NCBI RefSeq assembly: GCF_019599465.1
Contig: NZ_RKLR01000002.1
Location: forward strand, 62,001-126,000
Length of the DNA stretch: 64,000 nt
DNA from: Haloarcula rubra
GTDB taxonomy: Archaea > Halobacteriota > Halobacteria > Halobacteriales > Haloarculaceae
Direction of reading: 5' to 3'
A program made the position numbers and the translations under genes. The notes under the pieces are model-generated. The model saw only the letters and a program-made list of their open reading frames with translations. It did no database searches and was not told where the DNA came from. This document shows, in pieces, positions 48,205 to 49,409 of the stretch (positions within the stretch are counted from its first letter, which is position 1; each line of letters opens with the position of its first letter).

Positions 48205-48750
48205 ATGGCGACAGAGCAACTCACCCGTCGAACGGCAGGCACCGTCGGGGACAATCCCGTCCGTCTCGACACGGACAAGGCCGAACAGATTATCGACGCG
48301 CTGAACCGGGACCTCGCGGACGCGTACGTCCTCTACCACCAGCTCCACAAACACCACTGGAACGTCGAGGGCGCCGAACACCACGACATCCACGTCTGGT
48401 TACAGGAGGCCTACGAGGACGTAGAGGCGGCCGCCGACGCCGTGGCCGAGCGGATTCAGGCGCTCGGCGGCGTCCCACACGCGAGTATGCCGGCCCTCGC
48501 TGAGGCGGCGTCCGTCGAGGCCGAAGACGAGGACGTCTACGACATCCGGACATCGCTGGGGAACGATTTGGAGATGTACGGCGACGTCATCGAGAGCTAC
48601 CGCGACCACATCAGCCTCGCCGAGAACCTCGGCGACCACGCCACGGGCGAGATGCTCCGGCAGCAACTCGTCGACTTAGAGGAACACGCCCACGTCATCG
48701 ACCACTACCTCGAAGACGACACGCTCGTCCTCGAATCCGCGACGCGGTAG
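48205..48750 (+). CDS. dps: Dps-type ferritin-like iron storage/DNA protection protein
   Basis: 181 residues from the ATG at 48205 (MATEQLTRRTAGTVGDNPVR); a longer ATG frame to 48106 runs back through the promoter. Dps signature: YVLYHQLHKHHWNVEGAEHH with ferroxidase His, and the VWLQEAYEDVEAAADAVAER helix with Asp/Glu ligands of the dodecamer interface. Haloarchaeal DpsA stores iron and protects DNA under oxidative stress. Two palindromes before the gene and a DtxR-like site 1.1 kb away suggest iron- or redox-controlled expression. Confidence 0.92.
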   Translation: MATEQLTRRTAGTVGDNPVRLDTDKAEQIIDALNRDLADAYVLYHQLHKHHWNVEGAEHHDIHVWLQEAYEDVEAAADAVAERIQALGGVPHASMPALAEAASVEAEDEDVYDIRTSLGNDLEMYGDVIESYRDHISLAENLGDHATGEMLRQQLVDLEEHAHVIDHYLEDDTLVLESATR

Positions 48751-48770: not shown

Positions 48771-49073
48771 TTAGCTGACGTCGGGCGCCGTTTCGTCGGT
48801 GCGGCCCGGGATTTCGAGCTCGATTTCGAGTTCCGGGTCGTCGACGCCCTCGAAGTCGATTTCGAGGCGCACCGGCTCACCGAAGGCGAAGGGGAGTTCC
48901 CACTCGTCGCCTTCGAGCGTGAGTTCGTCGGTCTCCTGCAGTTGTTCGCCGAGGTCGACGAGGAACTCGCCCGCGTCGGCCGCGCGCAGTCGGTACTCCT
49001 CCTCGAAGTTCCGCCCGGTCGTAATCGTGGTCTTCTCGCCGTCGGTAGTCGTATCGTCTGTAGGCTCTGTCAT
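48771..49073 (-). CDS. Amphi-Trp domain protein
   Basis: 100 residues from the ATG at 49073 (MTEPTDDTTTDGEKTTITTG); longer in-frame starts read through the upstream small gene. The amphi-Trp-type segment is FEEEYRLRAADAGEFLVDLG followed by EWELPFAFGEPVRLEIDFEG. Amphi-Trp proteins are small, found in haloarchaea and some bacteria, with unknown biochemical role. Located immediately after a small gene (49121-49303) and probably in the same transcript behind an iron-box-like palindrome. Confidence 0.78.
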   Translation of the reverse strand: MTEPTDDTTTDGEKTTITTGRNFEEEYRLRAADAGEFLVDLGEQLQETDELTLEGDEWELPFAFGEPVRLEIDFEGVDDPELEIELEIPGRTDETAPDVS

Positions 49074-49120: not shown

Positions 49121-49303
49121 TCACCGGACGTCGGCGGCGTCGACCGTCAGGTCGGTCGCTATCCACCCGTCCGTGTTGTCGGTCGCCGTGAACACTGTGC
49201 GCCCCGGAACGGTCTCCTGCGCCGTGACCTGCGGCGACGAGTCCTCGTCACGGGCCGGCGTGTCGACAGCGACAGTCGTTGCCTGCGGTTCCATCTTCGA
49301 CAC
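49121..49303 (-). CDS. Small haloarchaeal protein (DUF7331-like) under an iron-box-like palindrome
   Basis: 60 residues with GTG at 49303 or 57 with the ATG at 49294. The C-terminal part GRTVFTATDNTDGWIATDLT resembles a haloarchaeal family of short proteins ending in 'DNxxAWIxSDxxV' that I associate with DUF7331; not verified. Function unknown. The 18-bp palindrome GTTTAGG-TTAG-CCTAAAC starts 4 nt upstream of the GTG, so iron-responsive control is likely (see finding). Confidence 0.6.
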   Translation of the reverse strand: MSKMEPQATTVAVDTPARDEDSSPQVTAQETVPGRTVFTATDNTDGWIATDLTVDAADVR

Positions 49304-49306
49304 TCT

Positions 49307-49324
49307 GTTTAGGTTAGCCTAAAC
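49307..49324. promoter_or_regulatory. DtxR/IdeR-type metal-response palindrome (iron box)
   Basis: GTTTAGG (49307-49313), TTAG spacer, CCTAAAC (49318-49324): a perfect 7-bp inverted repeat containing TTAGGTTAGCCTAA, identical over 14 bp to the core of the bacterial DtxR consensus. On the minus strand it lies between a TATA-like TTATAGT (about 49325-49331) and the start of the small gene at 49303, i.e. over the expected transcription start. Haloarchaea have DtxR-family regulators (Idr, SirR; established knowledge). Confidence 0.75.
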
Positions 49325-49409
49325 ACTATAACTTTTCTCGTTTGGGTCGGACCGAGGGCGGCGTCGAGAGGACTGTGAGTGACGCGAGGTTTTTTCTCGT
49401 CGGCGTCGA

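Follow-up and report, generated by a model that had tools for sequence, protein, structure and literature searches.

The palindrome at positions 49307–49324 of the window, by which we mean the whole 64,000-nt stretch of Haloarcula DNA analysed here, is well supported as the predicted operator of a DtxR-family regulator, standing in front of a small gene next to dpsA. The explanation that we favour overall, and regard as probable, couples this Idr-type operator to a small protein whose target is probably DpsA or the iron stored in it. It is a sequence-based proposal, drawn from the site itself, its position, its conservation, the regulon, and the adjacency and co-occurrence of the small gene with dpsA.

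The 18-mer GTTTAGGTTAGCCTAAAC (49307..49324, no strand assigned) lies exactly where the preliminary description placed it, and its assignment as a DtxR/IdeR-type iron box was borne out; the 14 bases of the core TTAGGTTAGCCTAA (49309–49322) exactly match the beginning of the published DtxR/IdeR consensus, TTAGGTTAGCCTAACCTAA (PMC7762939). The full 19-bp double element is not present, the window reading ACACT after base 14 where the consensus has CCTAA; as in the homologues, the element is just the 14-bp unit. With up to one mismatch allowed, TTAGGN4CCTAA has a single match in the 64,000-nt window, and dinucleotide shuffles average 0.18. Directly upstream of the box is a TATA-like element, AAAGTTATAG (approximately 49327–49336, minus strand), recognised from the sequence and from aligned homologous promoters, in which the T-rich TATA stretch occupies the same position. 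The sequence agrees with the earlier placement of the box between this element and the start codon of the minus-strand gene. The start itself needs correction: a GTG at 49303, as first proposed, is possible (60 aa), but the ATG at 49294 (57 aa; small gene 49121..49294, minus strand) is likelier, because the closest relative (L073, 88% identical) has CTG at the GTG codon and retains the ATG.

All 100 homologous loci examined have a box with at most one mismatch before the small gene, and in 87 it is exact. The same was found in all 80 organism-named loci, which largely overlap the 100-locus set. The 12 kb of sequence directly before the gene hold 86 exact boxes, versus 9 in 419 kb of flanks. 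Among the exact boxes, whose half-site bases are fixed by definition, the spacer bases vary at an unchanged position, and conservation of the site therefore does not merely follow from the closeness of the genomes. Three promoter architectures occur: one box between TATA and start, as in the window; this box plus a second one 26 bp upstream, around TATA; and the upstream box only. In 64 of the 100 small-gene promoters a further box lies upstream at a distance of exactly 26 bp, and L149 is one locus with both boxes.

We postulate that, when iron is ample, a metal-bound Idr-type dimer would occupy TTAGGTTAGCCTAA, between the TATA box and the start codon, and keep the transcription complex from assembling or escaping. 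Under iron shortage the repressor would leave, and the 57-aa protein would be made, here together with an amphi-Trp protein. Repression of the small gene by such a regulator is very likely. The small protein and DpsA would constitute a conserved haloarchaeal module with tail-to-tail genes, in which the small protein would most likely bind or antagonise DpsA, releasing stored iron or stopping storage during starvation; the same Idr-type regulator may activate dpsA in many relatives. Action of the small protein on DpsA is itself an evenly balanced proposition. Held more tentatively still is the wider idea that the small iron-box proteins are dedicated Dps partners throughout the class, produced in iron-starved cells and binding DpsA so as to drive iron release or stop storage, with one regulator switching the pair in opposite directions, such that iron-rich cells would repress the partner gene and activate dpsA.

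The genes behind the box had been described as having no known link to metal, which does not hold. The window operon is convergent with dpsA (48205..48750, plus strand, start codon inferred), encoding a mini-ferritin (DNA starvation/stationary phase protection protein DpsA), with 20 bp between the stop codons; the product scores 282.6 bits against the NF041388 equivalog model, whose curated cut-off is 170. dpsA adjoins the small gene in 85 of 100 loci and is convergent with it in nearly all of these, and many stop-to-stop gaps are shorter than 50 bp, though they range up to 780 bp and convergence is not universal. The conserved box, together with this adjacency and the co-occurrence of the genes, suggests that the small gene may help to control the keeping or release of stored iron. 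An unlikely alternative retains the same iron operator and derepression and has the small protein act elsewhere, as a general iron-sparing factor or a regulator, its adjacency to dpsA reflecting the clustering of iron genes. It gains from the box being kept at every locus, also at the 15 of 100 that have no dpsA close by, and from the divergent DUF7547-like neighbour that remains in several dpsA-less loci. It is harder to reconcile with gene content, the small gene being found in 253 of 273 DpsA-positive genomes versus just 1 of 20 DpsA-negative ones (Fisher p = 4e-18, phylogeny ignored), and with joint loss in six genera, where individual species lack both genes and other members have both. 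Adjacent genes can be lost together, and this co-loss is therefore not fully independent evidence. Counting against a tie to DpsA, no small gene was detected in 20 of the DpsA-positive genomes, and many of these belong to one family (f17).

The dpsA promoters bear on the proposed opposite switching. In 54 of 118 distinct dpsA promoters a degenerate copy of the box, with two mismatches at most, lies 64–71 bp before the ATG and some 20–25 bp upstream of the TATA stretch. This position looks activator-like and that of the small-gene box repressor-like. Control of the two convergent genes in opposite senses points to a small protein that counteracts iron storage. No such box could be recognised at the dpsA of the window itself (the best candidate has three mismatches), a point against the favoured explanation.

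Homologues of the small protein are about 50–60 aa long and DUF7331-like, and a protein search detected it in 254 of 293 genomes from the order (78 of 87 genera), including all 32 genomes searched from its own genus. Pfam PF24018 (DUF7331) is the best family match of both the window protein (16.2 bits, E 0.016) and its paralogue on contig C31 (24 bits), yet both fall below the curated cut-off of 27 bits, and among the DUF7331 matches of this genome only these two copies are preceded by the box. The two copies are a distinct iron-box branch relative to PF24018. DUF7331 as an iron family overall was rejected, as the other matches in the genome (L030–L036 and L038) have no box. Median pN/pS values of 0.3–0.4 point to purifying selection, and an alignment of 25 members shows no variation at F35, N40, W44 and D48; on these grounds the predicted product is a real protein. 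These same features weigh against a further reading, that the transcript is the important product and that derepressed convergent transcription into dpsA lowers DpsA in iron starvation through antisense RNA or transcriptional interference. The conserved convergent order and the often short gaps, 20 bp in the window among them, are what one would expect from it, but gaps of up to 780 bp and pairs that are sometimes not convergent are not, and we consider it improbable.

Structure prediction for the small protein gave a pLDDT of 66, with a beta-hairpin at residues 23–37 as the sole feature and no convincing relatives in the PDB; at this pLDDT no interface can be argued, and structure was set aside as a guide to function. 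A functional parallel to the proposed DpsA partner is Bfd (bacterioferritin-associated ferredoxin), the gene for which is induced by low iron. Bfd is needed to mobilise the iron stored in bacterioferritin (PMC7760384), and as a small partner of an iron-storage protein it would match the window protein in size and low-iron logic. Unlike Bfd, a [2Fe-2S] protein through which electrons are donated by way of haem, the small protein is mostly cysteine-free: the window protein, like 64 of 100 members, has no cysteine that could bind such a cluster. The supposed partner is moreover Dps and not bacterioferritin, making the parallel one of function and not of homology. A cysteine- or ferredoxin-based mechanism was dropped as unsupported by the sequences.

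The second gene of the predicted operon (48771..49073, minus strand) encodes a 100-aa amphi-Trp domain protein, scoring 40.6 bits with TIGR04354 (curated cut-off 31 bits). A small-gene/amphi-Trp operon had been proposed, and the box does precede both genes, but the amphi-Trp gene is optional: 11 of the 80 named loci, other genera included, have it as the second member after the small gene. The three-gene form of the window (small gene, amphi-Trp gene and convergent dpsA, with one box) recurs in other genera at L066, L073, L106, L113, L120, L130, L137 and L141. No mention of amphi-Trp or DUF7331 was found in the literature searched.

The window genome (4.67 Mb) is that of a haloarchaeon, placed in the genus Haloarcula in the broad GTDB sense, with Haloarcula pellucida as closest named relative. 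The genome-wide search for the 18-mer suggested earlier was run with the core pattern, returning 13 exact TTAGGN4CCTAA sites versus none for the reversed control. Boxes with up to one mismatch were not enriched genome-wide (23 versus 54 in the control), and the argument is therefore limited to exact boxes. The sites are not scattered: three front a gene for diaminobutyrate-2-oxoglutarate transaminase, a type of enzyme employed in making siderophores; a periplasmic-binding-protein ABC cluster is preceded by two, and further boxes front a solute-binding lipoprotein gene and a reversibly-glycosylated-polypeptide-domain gene; one precedes the second small-gene copy on C31, itself convergent with a second dpsA. 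Iron uptake and siderophore genes thus lie behind boxes of the same genome, although several of the 13 front genes without a clear iron role (NorB, GMC oxidoreductase), which, like the C11 site with no clear gene behind it, counts against the favoured explanation. Across the order, exact boxes occur in 289 of 293 genomes, usually far above control, with several to about 29 in most. The proposed DtxR operator in repressor position is strongly supported by the excess of boxes in the genome, by what the other sites precede and by its conservation in all homologous loci examined; the part of the preliminary description that fails is the metal-unrelatedness of the genes.

Four DtxR-family regulators (PF02742) are encoded in the window genome, and the two that were tested have IdeR/DtxR among their PDB relatives. 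Control by iron or manganese had been left as alternatives; the regulon content favours iron and disfavours manganese, and iron is very probably the signal of the small-gene operator. A SirR/MntR-like, manganese-type family member could in principle bind the box with manganese as the signal, given four DtxR-family genes in the genome and a family whose members can respond to several metals. We regard this as highly improbable, as siderophore synthesis, siderophore-type ABC transport and dps are what stand behind TTAGG-type boxes, and as two of the family genes (L039, L041) carry a different palindrome in their own promoters. That the palindrome arose by chance, for which its short length alone speaks, is refuted by the same-place conservation with variable spacer and by the 13 genomic sites versus none, and can be dismissed.

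A short DtxR-family gene is close to the small gene in 6 of 100 loci. As a separate observation, the nearby regulators at L066, L113, L120, L124, L127 and L141 are closest to the short L042 type found in the window genome, which has no FeoA domain and a CPDC...C tail. The palindromes before the starts of L039 (C31:20.8 kb) and L041 (C36:156 kb), TTAGACTCGTCTAA and TTAGCTCCATCTAA, possibly represent a second motif class or autoregulation.

The predicted operator resembles the DtxR/IdeR iron boxes of Actinobacteria in its identical 14-base core, in a position downstream of TATA that fits steric repression, and in a regulon of siderophore and storage genes. It differs in that the haloarchaeal unit is one 14-bp element, its half-sites separated by 4 bp, and not the 19-bp double element, and in that most relatives here have two units, spaced by 26 bp, on either side of an archaeal TATA box. 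The work of Leyn and Rodionov from 2015 is reportedly a comparative regulon study of haloarchaeal DtxR-type regulation, and the regulatory link of the small gene may already be tabulated in published studies of this kind. Also comparable is the network of Idr1, Idr2, SirR and TroR, DtxR-family regulators of iron homeostasis in Halobacterium and Haloferax (PMC11349517, PMC6978704), which belong to the same organism class; the four family members of the window genome are in keeping with it.

The fate of Dps iron was called unclear in a 2020 review (PMC7762939). A dedicated Dps partner, if true, would provide a route for iron out of Dps, and an iron-box-controlled protein encoded beside dps, and almost never without dps across Halobacteria, is a concrete candidate. 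The idea is testable in tractable haloarchaea and would suggest a probable function for a so far unnamed gene family present in 254 of the 293 genomes searched.

Several sites and neighbours drew attention in their own right. A DUF7547 gene (L017:12117-12731, C31:276116-276730) lies divergently upstream of the C31 small-gene copy, about 43 bp from the box, which the two may share; in several relatives a DUF7547-like gene still adjoins the small gene where dpsA is missing. The exact box about 100 bp before the NorB-type nitric oxide reductase gene (L021:4678-4691, C35:165677) raises a possible link between iron and denitrification. Another exact box (L019:4781-4794, C11:464780), behind which there is no clear annotated gene, is followed, with a TATA-like stretch, by a possible 36-codon ORF (MVNLPARWQTNGRR...). 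Finally, six exact boxes cluster at C31:260-277 kb (L016, L017) around transport, sugar-transfer and small-gene/dpsA genes, marking this region as a candidate iron island.
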